A stretch of 64,000 nt of DNA, from the NCBI GenBank assembly GCA_031257675.1, contig JAIROG010000037.1:1-64000 (forward strand), written 5' to 3'. Source of the stretch: Treponema sp. (GTDB lineage: Bacteria > Spirochaetota > Spirochaetia > Treponematales > Breznakiellaceae). Positions 1,363-9,334 of this stretch are shown here, piece after piece. The notes beneath the pieces were generated by a model, which saw only the letters and a program-made list of their open reading frames with translations, ran no database searches and was not told where the DNA came from. The position numbers and the translations under genes were made by a program. The stretch's first letter is position 1. Each line of letters starts with the position of its first letter.

Positions 1363-2331
1363 ATGTCAAATAGAGTGGCAGACAACCTGACGGAATTGGT
1401 GGGGAATACGCCCATCCTGCGGGCCCGCGCGTTCAGCAAGCTGGCGGGAATTGAGGGCGCCAACCTCCTCTTCAAACTGGAGTGCTTCAACCCCCTCTCC
1501 AGCGTGAAGGATCGCATCGCCAAAGCTATGATCGAAGACGCCGAAGCCAAGGGGCTTTTGAAAGCCGGCGCCGTGATCATTGAGCCAACATCGGGCAACA
1601 CGGGGATTGGGCTTGCTTTTGTGGCGGCGTCAAAGGGGTACCGCCTCATCCTCACCATGCCAGACACCATGAGCGTTGAGCGGCGGCAGTTGCTTTTGGC
1701 GCTGGGGGCGGAGTTGGCGCTGACTCCCGGCGCTCTGGGCATGAAGGGCGCCGTGAACAAAGCTCTGGAACTCAACGCCCGGATCAAAGGGAGTGTTGTT
1801 CTGCAACAATTCTCCAATCCCGCCAATCCGGAGATACACCGGAAAACCACAGGACCCGAAATTTGGGAGGCGACCGGCGGCAACATTGACATCCTCGTAG
1901 CCGGAGTGGGAACCGGCGGAACCATTACTGGAGCGGCCGCTTTCCTTAAAGAGAAAAAGCCTGATGTAAAAGCCGTAGCGGTGGAGCCAGACGCATCGCC
2001 GGTATTGTCGGGAGGCAAGCCGGGACCTCATCAGATACAGGGCATTGGCGCTGGTTTTACGCCTGACGCGCTCGACCTTTCGATTATTGACGAGATATTC
2101 CGGGTGCGGAATGAGGAGGCGGTGGACACCGCCAGGGCGCTTGCGCAAGAGGAGGGGCTTTTGGTGGGCATATCGTCCGGCGCAGCCGCCTTTGCCGCCG
2201 CGAAAGTCGCCGCTAGAACGGAAAACAAGGGCAAAACCATCGTGGGCATTCTTCCCGATACCGGGGAACGCTATCTTTCAACCATACTGTGGAAAGACAT
2301 TCCCAAAACAAAAAGTCCCATTTGGCATTAG
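1363..2331 (+). CDS. cysK: Cysteine synthase (O-acetylserine sulfhydrylase family)
   Basis: 322 aa; [16 protein letters not shown] (PLP Lys) and [12 protein letters not shown] motifs. Confidence 0.95.
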
Positions 2332-2388
2332 GAACCTCTGGAAACTCCGGTTGGGTTTCCAAAAGTTTCCATTAAGGAGGAACAAACG

Positions 2389-3729
2389 TTGAGCGCGATT
2401 ATTGACAGACCCCGGTATATGTGCGCCCTGGGAGGCGCGTTGGCTCTGATGAGAGCAATGAACCGGACTGTTCCCATTGTACATGCGGGCGCCGGCTGCG
2501 CGTACAATTACTTCATAGGCGGCAACGCCGGCGCGGGGTATCTGGGCGGCGGCTGCTACGGCGCGGTGACCACGCCTTCCACCAATGTGGCGGAAAAGGA
2601 AATCATCTTCGGCGGAGAGAGCCGCCTTGAAGAGCAGATACGCGCCACAGTGGAACTCATTGACGGCGATCTCTACATTGTCATCTCCGGCTGCCAAGTT
2701 GAAATGATAGGCGACGATATACGCATGACAGCGGAGGCTATTGAAGGGCTGCCTTCGCCGGTACTGGCCGTGCAGACCCCAAGTTTCAAGGGCAATTCCC
2801 AGCAAGGCTACGATATCCTCTTGGAAACGCTTGCGCGAAAGTACGTCGCCAAAACTGACGCAAAACGCAAGAACACGGTTAATGTGTTCGGCGTGATCCC
2901 CGGAAACGATCCTTTCTACAAGGGCAACCTGAAAGAGATCAAGCGGGTTCTCTCCCTCATCGGCGTTGACGCCAACACCTTTATCGGTGAAAGGGAAAAC
3001 CTTGACAATTTCCGCAACGCCGGAAGCGCCGAACTCAACATCGCGCTTTCCGATGTGTACGCCCCCCTGTCGGCGGAGGCGTTTAAAGAAGTCCACAATA
3101 TACCCTATATACGGGAACAGCTTCCCATCGGTTTCTTCCAGACCGAACGGTTCCTGCGCGCTGTGGGCGAGGCTCTTGCGATAGACGAGGCGGTTGTCAA
3201 TAGGGCGGTCAAGGCGGAAGAAGAAATTTACTTTGATTATTTTGAACGCATCGCCGACACCTACAATGACGTTGAACTCCAGCGTTACGGAGTTGTGGCG
3301 GCTGATTCCAATTACGCCCCGGCAATTTCCAATTTTATTTCCGATGAACTGGGCTGGATTCCCCACCTTACCATGGTGACTGACCCGGTTACCGAAGAAA
3401 ACAAGATCGCTCTGGACAGGCGTTTCAAAAATTACGCATCAAGGCTTGAGCCTACGGTGTATTACGATACAAACGCCTCAGCCCTGCGGCATTACCTTGC
3501 CGGCAGTTGGGAGCGGAATCGCAATCACATCTATTACGAACCTTTTTCGCCGGCGGTGATATTCGGCAGCGTGTATGAACGGGATTACGCTGAAGAGATG
3601 GGCGTTCCCCTACTTTCAATTTCGTTTCCCATAACAAACAGAGTTGTATTTAACAAAGCCTACGCGGGCTTTAATGGCGGACTCGCCTTGGCTGAAGACA
3701 GCTTCAGCCTGCTGGTGGCGGCGCGGTAA
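2389..3729 (+). CDS. Nitrogenase-like component 1 beta (NifK/MarK-like) subunit
   Basis: 446 aa; IVHAGAGC, LGGGC and ISGCQVEMIGDDI align with NifK P-cluster Cys positions (C70, C95, C153); TTG start 57 nt after cysK. Confidence 0.85.
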   Translation: MSAIIDRPRYMCALGGALALMRAMNRTVPIVHAGAGCAYNYFIGGNAGAGYLGGGCYGAVTTPSTNVAEKEIIFGGESRLEEQIRATVELIDGDLYIVISGCQVEMIGDDIRMTAEAIEGLPSPVLAVQTPSFKGNSQQGYDILLETLARKYVAKTDAKRKNTVNVFGVIPGNDPFYKGNLKEIKRVLSLIGVDANTFIGERENLDNFRNAGSAELNIALSDVYAPLSAEAFKEVHNIPYIREQLPIGFFQTERFLRAVGEALAIDEAVVNRAVKAEEEIYFDYFERIADTYNDVELQRYGVVAADSNYAPAISNFISDELGWIPHLTMVTDPVTEENKIALDRRFKNYASRLEPTVYYDTNASALRHYLAGSWERNRNHIYYEPFSPAVIFGSVYERDYAEEMGVPLLSISFPITNRVVFNKAYAGFNGGLALAEDSFSLLVAAR

Positions 3730-3744
3730 AATAGGAGGATGCAA

Positions 3745-5253
3745 ATGGCGTTGAAGATAGAACGGGCGGCGCCGCCCAGAGAAGACCGGCTTCAGGCGGG
3801 AACAGCCTATTGCGGAACCTGCGCGGAATTGCGAGATCGGCTGAGGCGCAAGGACGGCGGCTGTTTTAATCAGGCGAACCGGAGTTTTGGACAAAGTTTC
3901 GGCTGTCAGTTTACCCTGAGCCTCGCCATGCTCAACACCTTGCGGAATACAGTGGTGATTGTTCATGGACCTGTGGGCTGCGGCTTCTGGTCTATTGGCG
4001 GCGCCGGCGCGACCAGAACCATGAAGCGCCTGCGGGATCCCTCCCAGGGAAGCACGGTACAGATTTCCACCAACCTTGACGAAAGCGACGTCATTTCCGG
4101 CGGCGAAAAGAAACTGAGGGAGGCGGTGATCTACGCTGACCGGGAATTCCGTCCCGAAGCCATCGTGGTTACATCCACCTGCGTTCCCGCGCTCATCGGC
4201 GATGATGTCGACGCTATCCTTGACGGACTCAAGAAGGATGTTTCGGCGGATCTGGTGTCAGTCAACTGCGAGGGTTTTAAAACAAAACTCATGGCCACCG
4301 CCTACGATGCGGTGTACAATGGGATACTCAAGAATTTAAGCGAAAAGAAAATTGAGCGGGAAAGCCTCGTGGTCCCCGACAAGCTGGATGACATGCTCTG
4401 GAATTACAACAACGCCCATAGGGTCAACGTGTTCAATGTCGGTTCCATGGGACGGTCAGACGAGCTAGAGATTGTCCGGCTCCTCAACGCCCTTGAGCTT
4501 ACAGTCAATGTTATTCCCTGTTTCGCGTCTCCCAAAGATTTTCGCAAAGTCCTTGACGCCGCGCTCAATGTGAGCGTCTGCGGCACTCACGACGATTACT
4601 ACGTCAAGCGTATTGCGGAAGAGTACGGCATCCCTTACATCATCGACACCATGCCCATAGGCAGAAAAGGAACGGGGCGGTGGCTTATGAAAATCGCGGA
4701 ACATTTTCATCTTGAAGAACAGGCCGGGCGTTTAATAGAAAAAGAAGACGCCGCGCTCAACGAAGCCCTTGAACCGTACCGGAAGGCGCTCAAAGGAAAA
4801 CGGGCGTATATTTCAGGAGGCGAGATCCGCATATTTGTCACCGCCGAACTTGTACATGACCTGGGGCTTGAAATCGCGGGACTCAAAAGCCACCACATTG
4901 ATCATTTTGTTGAACCGGTCTTTGACGACGCGTCCATTGCCGGGGACACCTGCATCGACATCGCCTCCCAGCATCCTTTTGAACAGGCGAACCTGCTCCG
5001 CAAGATAAAACCCGACGTGCTTTTAATGCATGTAGGAGGCGGCAATTTCACGGCGAAACACGGGCTTCCGGTACTGCCCCTCTTTAACCCCGGTTTTAAT
5101 TACATGGGCTATTCCGGCGCATTCGAAGTCGCTTGCCGGCTTAAACGGATTTTGTCAAACAGCCAGTACAATAAAAACATCCAGAAACACCGCCCTCTCC
5201 CTTACCGGGAATCATGGTACGAAAAGGATGTGGGCGCGTATATCAAGGGGTGA
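3745..5253 (+). CDS. Nitrogenase-like component 1 alpha (NifD/MarD-like) subunit
   Basis: About 502 aa; SFGC, VHGPVGC and STCVPALIGDD (P-cluster Cys positions), NCEGF, and LNVSVCGTHDDYYVKRIAEEYGIPYI (Cys275 equivalent). ORF track begins at 3739; in-frame ATG at 3745. Confidence 0.85.
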   Translation: MALKIERAAPPREDRLQAGTAYCGTCAELRDRLRRKDGGCFNQANRSFGQSFGCQFTLSLAMLNTLRNTVVIVHGPVGCGFWSIGGAGATRTMKRLRDPSQGSTVQISTNLDESDVISGGEKKLREAVIYADREFRPEAIVVTSTCVPALIGDDVDAILDGLKKDVSADLVSVNCEGFKTKLMATAYDAVYNGILKNLSEKKIERESLVVPDKLDDMLWNYNNAHRVNVFNVGSMGRSDELEIVRLLNALELTVNVIPCFASPKDFRKVLDAALNVSVCGTHDDYYVKRIAEEYGIPYIIDTMPIGRKGTGRWLMKIAEHFHLEEQAGRLIEKEDAALNEALEPYRKALKGKRAYISGGEIRIFVTAELVHDLGLEIAGLKSHHIDHFVEPVFDDASIAGDTCIDIASQHPFEQANLLRKIKPDVLLMHVGGGNFTAKHGLPVLPLFNPGFNYMGYSGAFEVACRLKRILSNSQYNKNIQKHRPLPYRESWYEKDVGAYIKG

Positions 5254-5405: not shown

Positions 5406-6710
5406 TCACGGCGCAGCCGTGTCAAAAGCCTTTCCGAATTTCTTTACCGCATCGACAACGTAATCATAGGTCATAAAGAATCTGACTCCCTGTTCCGCAA
5501 GGCGGCGGCGTGGAGCATCGCCTATGCGCATGGCAATAACGCCGTCGCAGTCCTCCAGCGTGTCGAAAATCCCGTTGAGTCCTTCTTCATGCCATTTCAT
5601 TGCGGCATGTCCGCAGGTTTCTTTGCCTTGGCAGTACCTGGACACGTCCCGTTTTTCGATAAATTCAACCGCGCCGTTTTTATACTGATATATATAAAAA
5701 GCCGAGACATGCCCAAAATGCTGATCCACCGCAACGCCATTTTTGGAAGCCACCGCGAAGAGCAACGGACGAAGATTCTTTCCGGAATCCCTTCCAACCG
5801 GCGCCGAATCCGCAAAGATTGATCGTTCTGTTTCATCGTAACTTTTGCCGCCCGCAAACTGGAAGGAAATATCCTCATCCAAAGTCCCCACAGCGTCCGC
5901 GCGGCACTGGCGGCAATGGTACATCTGGGGCAGTATGGTCTCGCAGGTTTTCCGCATTTCAGTAAGCTCCGCGTTGCTCGCCATGGGGATATGTTCAAAA
6001 ATGGCGCCTCGCACCGGAATGAGTTGCATGATGTTGGTCATATCCGCGCCGGCTTCTTTCACCTTCGCCACAATCTCAGGGATTACGCCGTCATTGACGC
6101 CTTTGATCATGACAATGTTGACTTTCGTGACGATTCCCAGGTTCCACAGGCGCGAAATGCCTTCGTACTGGTTTTCAAGCAGAATGCCCGCGCCTTCGGC
6201 GCCTGAATAGCGCTTCCCCTCGTATTGTACAAAGCGGTAGATGCGCCGCCCTTCTTCAGGACTTGCCGCGTTCACCGTCACCGTCACGTGGGAAACGCCT
6301 AATTCGGCGATGTCGCCGGCGTATCGGGGAAGGAGGAGCCCGTTGGTTGAAAGGCAGAAAACAACGCCGCTGTCAGCCTTGCGGACGAGCGAAAAAGTCT
6401 CCCGCACCCGGTCGAATTCGGCAAGGGCGTCCCCGGGCCCCGCGACGCCGGCCACGTCGATCTTCCCCAACCGTTGGCGAGCGTCAAGGAATCGCTCCAA
6501 CGCCTTTTCCGGCGCAAGTATGTTAGCGGTTACACCGGGACGGCTTTCGTTGGCGCATTCGTACTTCCGCAGGCAGTAATTGCATTGGATATTGCAGGAC
6601 GGCGCTACAGGCAGATGTATGCGCGTGAGCTTCCCTCCGCAACCATTAAAACAGGGGTGCGCAAGAGACTTGAGCGCATTGGCTTTCTTCCGGTCATGAA
6701 TATCCCGCAT
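5406..6710 (-). CDS. NifB-like radical SAM protein with C-terminal NifX/FeMo-cofactor-binding-like domain
   Basis: 434 aa; CNIQCNYC radical SAM motif, NifB-like HPCFN start, C-terminal VDQHFGHVSAFYIY typical of dinitrogenase Fe-Mo cofactor-binding domain. Confidence 0.85.
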   Translation of the reverse strand: MRDIHDRKKANALKSLAHPCFNGCGGKLTRIHLPVAPSCNIQCNYCLRKYECANESRPGVTANILAPEKALERFLDARQRLGKIDVAGVAGPGDALAEFDRVRETFSLVRKADSGVVFCLSTNGLLLPRYAGDIAELGVSHVTVTVNAASPEEGRRIYRFVQYEGKRYSGAEGAGILLENQYEGISRLWNLGIVTKVNIVMIKGVNDGVIPEIVAKVKEAGADMTNIMQLIPVRGAIFEHIPMASNAELTEMRKTCETILPQMYHCRQCRADAVGTLDEDISFQFAGGKSYDETERSIFADSAPVGRDSGKNLRPLLFAVASKNGVAVDQHFGHVSAFYIYQYKNGAVEFIEKRDVSRYCQGKETCGHAAMKWHEEGLNGIFDTLEDCDGVIAMRIGDAPRRRLAEQGVRFFMTYDYVVDAVKKFGKAFDTAAP

Positions 6711-6736: not shown

Positions 6737-7624
6737 TTATATGGCGGCGCCCTGCGATGTGATCTCGCCCTGTTCCAGAGCCAGAAGGTTATCTGCCCAA
6801 GAAGCCGCCCATGCCCGCAATTCAGCGGCTTCCAGGGGGGAAGGTGTTTTGGACTCGGTATGCTCGGCGATCTTGCGGGCAAGGGAACGATACACATTGG
6901 CTTGCTCAGACGCGGACGCCGCCTCGATAGTGGTCTTTCCCTGGAGTTCGCTCTTGGTCACCGTTATGGAACGGGGTATGTATTCGATCACGCGCGTGGA
7001 CGCGCGCTTTACAAAGTCGTTGATAATTTCCCGTGAATAGGGTTGTCCCATGGAATTGGCGATTACCCCGCCCAAAAGGGCGCCGCCTGAATTGGAGTAC
7101 TTGCTTATCCCCTTAAAAAGATTGTTGGAAGCGTAGATGGACATAAAATCCGCGGATGACACGGTAAACACATGTTCGGCAATGCCTTCTCTGATAGGGA
7201 CGGCGAAGCCTCCACACACCACGTCTCCCAGTACATCGTAAATAACCACGTCCAGACGCAGGTCTTCAAAAACATGTTGATGCTTGAAAAGCTCCACAGC
7301 CGTGATAATGCCCCTGCCCGCGCAGCCAACGCCCGGAGCGGGTCCGCCGGCTTCGACGCAGTAGATGCCGTTATAGCCCTCATAAATAACCTCCGAGGCT
7401 TTTACCGTTGACTTTTCCCGAAGTGTGTCCAGCACGGTGGGGATGAATTTGCCGTCCCGCAGGGTGTTGGTGGAGTCGCTCTTGGGATCACAGCCAAACT
7501 GCATCACTTTGAGGTTCATCTCTGAAAGAGCCGCGCTGAGGTTGGACGTGGTGGTGGACTTACCTATGCCCCCCTTCCCGTATATGGCGATTTGCTTTAT
7601 CTTATGCGCCAACATCTTCTCCAA
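6737..7624 (-). CDS. NifH-like Fe protein (component 2)
   Basis: 295 aa; YGKGGIGKSTTTSN P-loop, GCDPKSDST, GVGCAGRG and DVLGDVVCGGFAVPIR with both [4Fe-4S] ligand Cys. Confidence 0.9.
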   Translation of the reverse strand: MEKMLAHKIKQIAIYGKGGIGKSTTTSNLSAALSEMNLKVMQFGCDPKSDSTNTLRDGKFIPTVLDTLREKSTVKASEVIYEGYNGIYCVEAGGPAPGVGCAGRGIITAVELFKHQHVFEDLRLDVVIYDVLGDVVCGGFAVPIREGIAEHVFTVSSADFMSIYASNNLFKGISKYSNSGGALLGGVIANSMGQPYSREIINDFVKRASTRVIEYIPRSITVTKSELQGKTTIEAASASEQANVYRSLARKIAEHTESKTPSPLEAAELRAWAASWADNLLALEQGEITSQGAAI

Positions 7625-7985: not shown

Positions 7986-9179
7986 TCAGCGCAAACCGGA
8001 CTTTTTTAAGGCTTGATCCATATCCGCGATGATGTCTTCTCCGTCCTCAAGCCCCGCGCTGAAACGAAAAAAACCCCGGTGAAATTCCGGGGGATAGAGA
8101 TATTGGCGTTCATCATTTTCACCTAAAAACACGATGAGGCTCTCGTCGTGTCCCAGGGAAACCGCAGAGGTGATCAATCCCAGATGGCTGACGAAGCGGT
8201 TATGGGCGTCGTGATCCGCGTCCAAGCCGAACGCCAAAACCCCGCCGAATCCCGGTGACATTTGGGAGACGGCGACGGCGCGCCCCCGGTGGCTTTCCAA
8301 CCCCGGATATGCCGTAAACCGGACGCAGGGGAGGCTTTCCAGATACTGCGCGACCCGCAGGGCGTTTTCATTGTGCCGCCCCATCCTCAGAGGCAAGGTG
8401 ACAGACCCCCGCATGATGAGCCATGCGTTAAAGGGACTGACAACGCCTCCCAAATTCACTTGAGACTGGGCGCGGATCAGTTCCAAATGGACTTTTTTGC
8501 CGATCACAGCCCCACCCATGGCGTCCCCATGACCGTTGATGTATTTAGTGAGACTTTCCACGGAAAAATCCGCCCCCAGTTCCAGAGGACGCTGGTTGTA
8601 GGGGGATGCGAAGGTGTTGTCCACCGAAAAAAGAGACCCGTTGGCGCGGGCAATTCCGGCGATTGCCCGAATGTCGGAAATGGCCAGAGTAGGGTTTCCC
8701 GGCGTTTCGATGTGAACCAGCCTGGTGTTGGGGCGCATGGCGCTCCGGACAGCTTCCAGATCGCTGGTGTCAACAATGGTGGTTTCGACATTGAATTTAT
8801 GGTTGAGCAATTCGCGCAACAGCCGGTACACCGCGATATAGGTTACGCTGGAAAAAACCACATGGTCGCCGCTTTTGAGCAAGGCGAAAAACAACCCGGA
8901 CAGCGCCGCCACCCCGCTGGCTAAAACCACGCAATCCTCTCCCCCGGAAAGGGAAGTCAGTTTTTCCTCCAAGTACTTCTGGTTGCTGCCCCCGTTCCGG
9001 GTGTAAAGGCTTGTATCCGCCCCGCTCCAGTTCATTTCCGAAGGATCGTAGGGCAACGCGTAGCTGTTTGCCATGGTGATGGGACGCCGGATAGCGCCGG
9101 TTTCTCCGTCCACATCGTTCCCGGTGTGAACCGCCCGTGTGGAAAATCCAAATTCTTGTCCGTATATGCGCTTTTTCAT
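7986..9179 (-). CDS. PLP-dependent Cys/Met metabolism enzyme (trans-sulfuration family; cystathionine lyase/synthase, methionine gamma-lyase or O-acetylhomoserine sulfhydrylase)
   Basis: About 397 aa; SVESLTKYINGHGDAMGG (PLP Lys), IETPGNPTL, HGRFFRFSAGLED-like end. Start chosen at MKKRIYG (9179). Confidence 0.85.
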   Translation of the reverse strand: MKKRIYGQEFGFSTRAVHTGNDVDGETGAIRRPITMANSYALPYDPSEMNWSGADTSLYTRNGGSNQKYLEEKLTSLSGGEDCVVLASGVAALSGLFFALLKSGDHVVFSSVTYIAVYRLLRELLNHKFNVETTIVDTSDLEAVRSAMRPNTRLVHIETPGNPTLAISDIRAIAGIARANGSLFSVDNTFASPYNQRPLELGADFSVESLTKYINGHGDAMGGAVIGKKVHLELIRAQSQVNLGGVVSPFNAWLIMRGSVTLPLRMGRHNENALRVAQYLESLPCVRFTAYPGLESHRGRAVAVSQMSPGFGGVLAFGLDADHDAHNRFVSHLGLITSAVSLGHDESLIVFLGENDERQYLYPPEFHRGFFRFSAGLEDGEDIIADMDQALKKSGLR

Positions 9180-9334
9180 ATTATTATTATCGGAAATATA
9201 ATATAATGTCAATGAAAAATATTCTGGAAGCTGTTCCAAAACGCGCAGGACGACGGTTCTTGGACACGCTCACTTTTTTATGTTTTTTAACGGGCAGGCC
9301 GTGATGTTACGAATTAACGCGCTTTTTGCGCTTT

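Follow-up and report, generated by a model that had tools for sequence, protein, structure and literature searches.

The locus described here raises the question of whether a nitrogenase-like D subunit whose active site departs from that of NifD still holds a large metal cofactor, through which residues, and for what chemistry. An earlier reading of this DNA, made from its letters only (hereafter the sequence-only reading), had claimed that the protein keeps the P-cluster cysteines and the Cys275 equivalent of NifD and lacks the distal histidine ligand. The window, that is, the whole stretch of 64,000 nucleotides that was analysed, belongs to contig C76; the assembly amounts to 2.37 Mb and is 83% complete. 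Judged by the NflD protein, its nearest named relatives are Treponema and Spirochaetaceae bins, and from these bins, the occurrence of Sporobacter termitidis among the relatives and a published termite spirochaete (PMC13067680) we infer that the window spirochaete comes from a termite gut.

Two convergent gene groups face each other in the window: cysK-nflK-nflD on the forward strand (1363-5253) and nflH-nflB on the reverse strand (7624-5406). The first group comprises cysK (1363..2331, +), encoding a cluster-linked paralogue of cysteine synthase (O-acetylserine sulfhydrylase; TIGR01139, 436.5 bits against a cut-off of 350.95), nflK (2389..3729, +), encoding a NifK/MarK-like subunit (PF00148, 214.5 bits), and nflD (3745..5253, +), encoding the NifD/MarD-like subunit. 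The second comprises nflB (5406..6710, −), for a NifB-type radical SAM protein with a C-terminal NifX-like domain (TIGR01290, 393.7 bits against 343.65; PF04055 and PF02579), and nflH (6737..7624, −), for a NifH-like reductase with Cys101 and Cys137 (TIGR01287, 397.4 bits against 394.35). Upstream of nflH, a gene for a PLP enzyme of Cys/Met metabolism (7986..9239, −; PF01053, 350.4 bits, under the cut-off of every NCBIfam model listed) is possibly part of the cluster; in other loci this gene is seldom linked to D/K. No ABC transporter gene adjoins the nfl cluster of the window, and an RNA family search of the window gave no match. Two 155-residue open reading frames at the two ends of the window had been taken for copies of a single insertion element, a guess that proved wrong.

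The open reading frame of nflD is real and spans 3739-5253 (+), with 504 amino acids. Its start had been placed at 3745, which is probably correct because an AGGAGG at 3733-3738 stands six bases ahead of that ATG, favouring it over the one at 3739; residue numbers given here are counted from 3739 and are two lower for the 3745 start. The motifs SFGC, VHGPVGC and STCVPALIGDD, previously matched to NifD, do fall on the P-cluster columns of both MarD and NifD, with Cys56 (3904..3906, +) at NifD Cys62/MarD Cys66, Cys81 (3979..3981, +) at NifD Cys88/MarD Cys91 and Cys148 (4180..4182, +) at NifD Cys154/MarD Cys158. Cys81, Cys148 and Cys281 are identical in all 96 window-type relatives and Cys56 in 95 of them, far beyond chance. 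NflK contributes Cys12, Cys37 and Cys102, invariant among 12 K proteins, and the pair thus has the three P-cluster cysteines in D and three in K that characterize Mar, in support of the P-cluster-like centre proposed earlier. The single exception at the first cysteine is a close relative with Tyr in its place (L045:7574-9088), either a real variant or an assembly error.

On the active-site side, the segment formerly assigned to the Cys275 region, LNVSVCGTHDDYY, places Cys281 (4579..4581, +) in the column of MarD Cys270 and NifD Cys275, where it is found in 96/96 clade members and is the probable proximal cofactor ligand. A Cys-anchored cofactor, as had been suggested, is in this regard supported. 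The distal ligand tells a different story. The MarD structure (PDB 9FMG) has Cys270 and His429 as the cofactor ligands, the histidine sitting on loop I rather than on loop II, which carries His442 in NifD (PMC12552129). Window residue His431 (5029..5031, +; motif LMHVGGG), which falls in the Gly424 column of NifD, aligned with MarD His429 in a single-sequence search as well as in a 54-sequence profile, and when 133 D-type proteins were aligned together with MarD, every window-type (96/96) and every Mar-type protein (26/26) carried it. Since the window loop is one residue shorter than that of Mar, His431 could also be aligned with Arg428; in these alignments, the presence of a histidine on a MarD-type loop I is nevertheless not in doubt. 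The proximal cysteine and distal loop I histidine that define the Mar clamp are thus both invariant in the window type, and His431 is the probable distal ligand.

The segment in which no histidine had been seen, PLFNPGFNYMGYSG, does lie on NifD loop II without one, and no histidine was found on this loop anywhere in the clade alignment. The error of the sequence-only reading arose from comparing the protein with NifD alone: alignment to MarD places a histidine at the distal-ligand position on the other loop, the outcome that it had itself named as a refutation, and its headline consequently fails, whereas its motifs and its view of a pocket unlike that of FeMo-co stand.

The predicted structure is in line with this assignment. 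An AlphaFold2 model of NflD built on the 54-sequence alignment (pLDDT 89.5, pTM 0.90) has MarD 9FMG_A as its best fold match in the PDB (TM 0.81/0.88, rmsd 3.1), with all NifD chains behind at a TM of about 0.7, and it puts His431 directly after the strand 427-430. The only invariant histidine columns of the window type are His76, His284 and His431. His284 was considered as distal ligand and rejected, and His431 is preferred, because His284 lies only three residues past the proximal Cys281 and has no MarD counterpart. One may still ask whether His431 is merely a conserved loop residue, either because Cys281 binds the cofactor together with some other group or because the protein has no large cofactor. 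The clade is known from sequences and one predicted structure, His284 is equally invariant and a related D type without the loop histidine exists; but the position is the homologue of one that acts as a ligand in 9FMG (PMC12552129), its invariance extends over the 96 clade and 26 Mar-type proteins, and a NifB accompanies it, which makes this explanation decidedly unlikely.

The related D type just mentioned (L028:4612-6129, also L027, L029, L040, L054 and L138-L143) occurs in the same order and keeps the P-cluster and cofactor cysteines. It has a shorter loop I without histidine, no His375 equivalent, and Cys or His at the site of MarD Trp195, and several of its loci have next to them genes for ABC transporters whose binding proteins are of the SBP_bac_3 type. 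As its sequences read, the claim of a missing histidine would hold for this type.

If the clamp is that of MarD, the pocket around it is not. Arg428 beside His429 is the proposed hallmark of Mar (PMC12552129); the window D has Met430 at this position, and the clade as a whole has Gly, Thr, Met, Ala, Ile, Ser or Val. Nor are the Mar residues Trp195 and His194 near S2B found, their places being taken by Met185 (4291..4293, +; NifD Gln191) and Leu184, although Trp at the Trp195 site occurs in another subclade and His194 is not general even among Mar-type relatives. The possibility, raised beforehand as a challenge to the sequence-only reading, that MarD homologues might have a different pocket applies as well: the pocket is partly different, as Arg428, His194 and Trp195 are not conserved in the window clade. 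What the clade has instead is an invariant His284-Asp285-Asp286 motif after the cofactor cysteine (4588..4596, +; 96/96), where Mar proteins have Leu, Gly/Ser and a variable residue, and an Arg364 in the NifD Arg359 column (4828..4830, +; 96/96) that is not conserved in Mar. By analogy with the NifD structure, Arg364 may do at a belt sulfide what Arg428 does in MarD. His386 in the MarD His375 column (4894..4896, +) is common to both types (92/96 in the clade, 26/26 in Mar). Owing to these differences, the substrate is probably not that of Mar.

These features bear on the idea that NflDK is a functional methylthio-alkane reductase, releasing methanethiol from methylthio compounds for conversion to methionine by the nearby PLP enzyme. 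MarD is the closest solved relative, the Cys-His clamp and His386 are shared with it, and the PF01053 enzyme at 7986-9239 would fit. However, besides the absence of Arg428, His194 and Trp195, the window type does not group with MarD in the D tree and forms a clade of its own (SH-aLRT 96) that is distinct from that of Mar (100), NifD and NifE falling outside both; it is CysK that is linked, the PLP gene rarely so; and contig C15 of the same genome already encodes another NFL pair, which is canonically Mar-like and has Arg-His in loop I (L024:8615-10129). A Mar function is in consequence rather improbable for NflDK.

Two other D proteins show further patterns. A divergent one from Geobacteraceae (L101:19737-21467), on a very long branch, has Ala-Pro in place of Arg-His and Asp in place of His375; another from a spirochaete of the same family (L148:1501-2910) has Gly-Cys-Pro at the P-cluster cysteine sites and Asp at the cofactor cysteine, an IsrD-like pattern.

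Within its clade, the window D groups with those of other spirochaetes, Candidatus Adiutrix and Massilibacillus. The published names for group IV proteins are CfbD, MarD, IsrD and NfaD (PMC11423573, PMC9147875), and group IV-A has been reported near non-selenium mlp clusters and corrinoid methyltransferases (PMC10418091). Paenibacillaceae members fall in the window clade, and URO-D type methyltransferase genes lie nearby in 21 of the 29 members of its D-K-order subclade; judged by these members and neighbours, the clade is probably NFL group IV-A (Nfa). Loci of this subclade (L116, L119, L120, L053, L110 and others) adjoin genes for URO-D type methyltransferases, a corrinoid protein and a RACo activator, and because corrinoid methyltransferase genes often stand there instead of CysK, the chemistry may vary within the clade. 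In two Paenibacillus loci (L095:14841-16865 and L099:19553-20434) a BcrAD_BadFG ATPase resembling a double-cubane cluster protein lies near the NFL cluster, in one of them fused to an HGD-D domain.

As for the cofactor itself, NflB scores over the NifB cut-off and is the sole NifB found in the assembly. Neither NifD, NifE nor NifN was found there, and no NifV over its cut-off, with the assembly 83% complete; the partners that FeMo-co requires thus did not appear in it. The presence of NifB together with the absence of NifE/N and NifV from what was found leads us to expect an [Fe8S9C] cofactor. Equivalents of NifD His442, Gln191 and His195 are likewise absent from the window D, the Gln191/His195 region aligning with CEGFKTKLMATAYDA as had been noted, and both results agree with the earlier view that canonical FeMo-co coordination does not apply. 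A further explanation is that NflDK is a group IV-A nitrogenase that reduces N2 with an [Fe8S9C]-type cofactor made without NifEN. Diazotrophy by means of a group IV enzyme, in the absence of NifEN, is indeed reported for Endomicrobium proavitum (PMC9147875, PMC11257099, PMC8399215), and the arginine in the NifD Arg359 column is invariant. Against this, the three NifD pocket residues are absent, no NifV scored over its cut-off, the genes are linked to a cysteine synthase, and the [Fe8S9C] enzyme Mar does not reduce N2 (PMC12552129), so that nitrogen fixation has little to recommend it here.

The gene linkage points toward sulfur. CysK lies within 4.5 kb of D/K in 41 of 56 K-D-order loci, 8/8 loci of the PGF subclade and 12/29 D-K-order loci, against 5/25 Mar-type loci; these are raw counts that ignore kinship, drawn from Spirochaetota, Bacillota, Thermodesulfobacteriota and Planctomycetota. 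Moreover, the window CysK falls together with linked CysKs from other spirochaetes and from Candidatus Adiutrix and Massilibacillus, a grouping also seen for its D, and the unlinked CysKs encoded by these spirochaetes lie elsewhere in the tree, so that the genes appear to have travelled together. The linked CysKs do not all form one clade (the K-D-order group needs 15 changes), but within the subclade of the window they stay together. Nor is the cluster CysK the only candidate cysteine synthase: two further CysK-like genes are present in the genome, and it is therefore the linkage, not uniqueness, that carries the argument. A CysE-like protein is also encoded, matching below the curated cut-off.

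ABC transporters with binding proteins of the NMT1 type are encoded beside many relatives, and the Isr system of Rhodobacter capsulatus works with SsuCAB (PMC11423573), which would fit a sulfonate reductase like IsrBHDK, releasing sulfite. Membership in Isr is ruled out by the cysteine pattern and by NifB: IsrD has one of the three P-cluster cysteines and no Cys275 equivalent (PMC11423573), all of which the window D has, and NflB is over the NifB cut-off where IsrB is not NifB-like. In addition, sulfite reductase (PF01077) is absent from 10 of the 11 spirochaete genomes carrying the clade, the same search being positive in 11 of 14 control genomes, and such carriers could not assimilate sulfite by that route. 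Release of sulfite is accordingly quite improbable.

Together, these findings favour, with a probability of roughly one half, a reductase with a P-cluster and an [Fe8S9C] cofactor that breaks a C-S bond and supplies cysteine synthase with the sulfide. NflBHDK would work as an ATP-dependent, nitrogenase-like two-component reductase in which electrons from NflH reach a P-cluster bound by the three cysteines of D and three of K and then move on to an [Fe8S9C] cofactor; NflB would make this cofactor, and Cys281 and His431 of D would clamp it in the MarD manner. The substrate would most likely be an imported organosulfur compound whose C-S bond is cleaved reductively, the released sulfide being captured as cysteine by the adjacent CysK. 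The transporter genes beside many relatives fit such an import, but the window cluster has none next to it and its nflH and nflB lie on the opposite strand, which counts against this reading. Ligand positions, gene linkage and the missing companion genes are read directly from sequence, and the nature of the cofactor, cleavage of a C-S bond and sulfide as product are deduced from them. The enzyme, then, is probably a means of gaining sulfur from organic compounds and not of fixing N2. More tentatively, we suggest that it represents an additional type of nitrogenase-like C-S enzyme, in which the Cys-His clamp is that of MarD but the pocket is different and sulfide is handed to a dedicated cysteine synthase; a single NifB may then serve two [Fe8S9C] reductases, Mar and NflDK, in one organism.

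The invariance of the clamp in a second large clade that spans several phyla predicts the cofactor of that clade, makes its function testable and bears on the question of N2 fixation by group IV-A enzymes. The distal histidine had escaped placement by ancestral reconstruction (PMC12552129); its shared position suggests that the loop I histidine predates the split between Mar and the window clade. The gene set was already known of but uncharacterised, as a nifK-nifD-cysteine synthase operon of a termite spirochaete has been described (PMC13067680). The openly accessible literature that was searched contained no biochemical data on any clade member and no mention of the distal-ligand reading, the His-Asp-Asp motif or the co-inherited CysK.

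Among known systems, MarBHDK of Rhodospirillum rubrum (PDB 9FMG, 9D9U) stands closest, sharing the six P-cluster cysteines, the Cys270/His429 clamp, His375, a NifB-type partner and the fold; the window system differs in having K before D, a linked CysK, a separate clade and a pocket in which His-Asp-Asp and Arg364 are conserved instead of Arg428, His194 and Trp195. NfaHDK, or NFL group IV-A (Endomicrobium proavitum, Paenibacillus riograndensis, Heliophilum NflDK1), is probably of the same clade, a likeness drawn from Paenibacillaceae members and corrinoid methyltransferase neighbours, with the difference that E. proavitum is reported to be diazotrophic. IsrBHDK of Rhodobacter capsulatus is likewise an NFL system of sulfur metabolism with a radical SAM partner, but IsrD lacks two P-cluster cysteines and the cofactor cysteine, and IsrB is not NifB-like (PMC11423573). 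Mo-nitrogenase NifDK has in common the P-cluster cysteines, the proximal cofactor cysteine and the arginine of the Arg359 column; unlike it, the window D has no His442, Gln191 or His195, its distal histidine lies in the Gly424 column, and NifE/N and NifV were not found. Finally, the group IV operon of P. corrugata, a pillotinaceous spirochaete of the termite gut, is likened to the window by its published description, with K, D and cysteine synthase in one operon and B and H elsewhere (PMC13067680).
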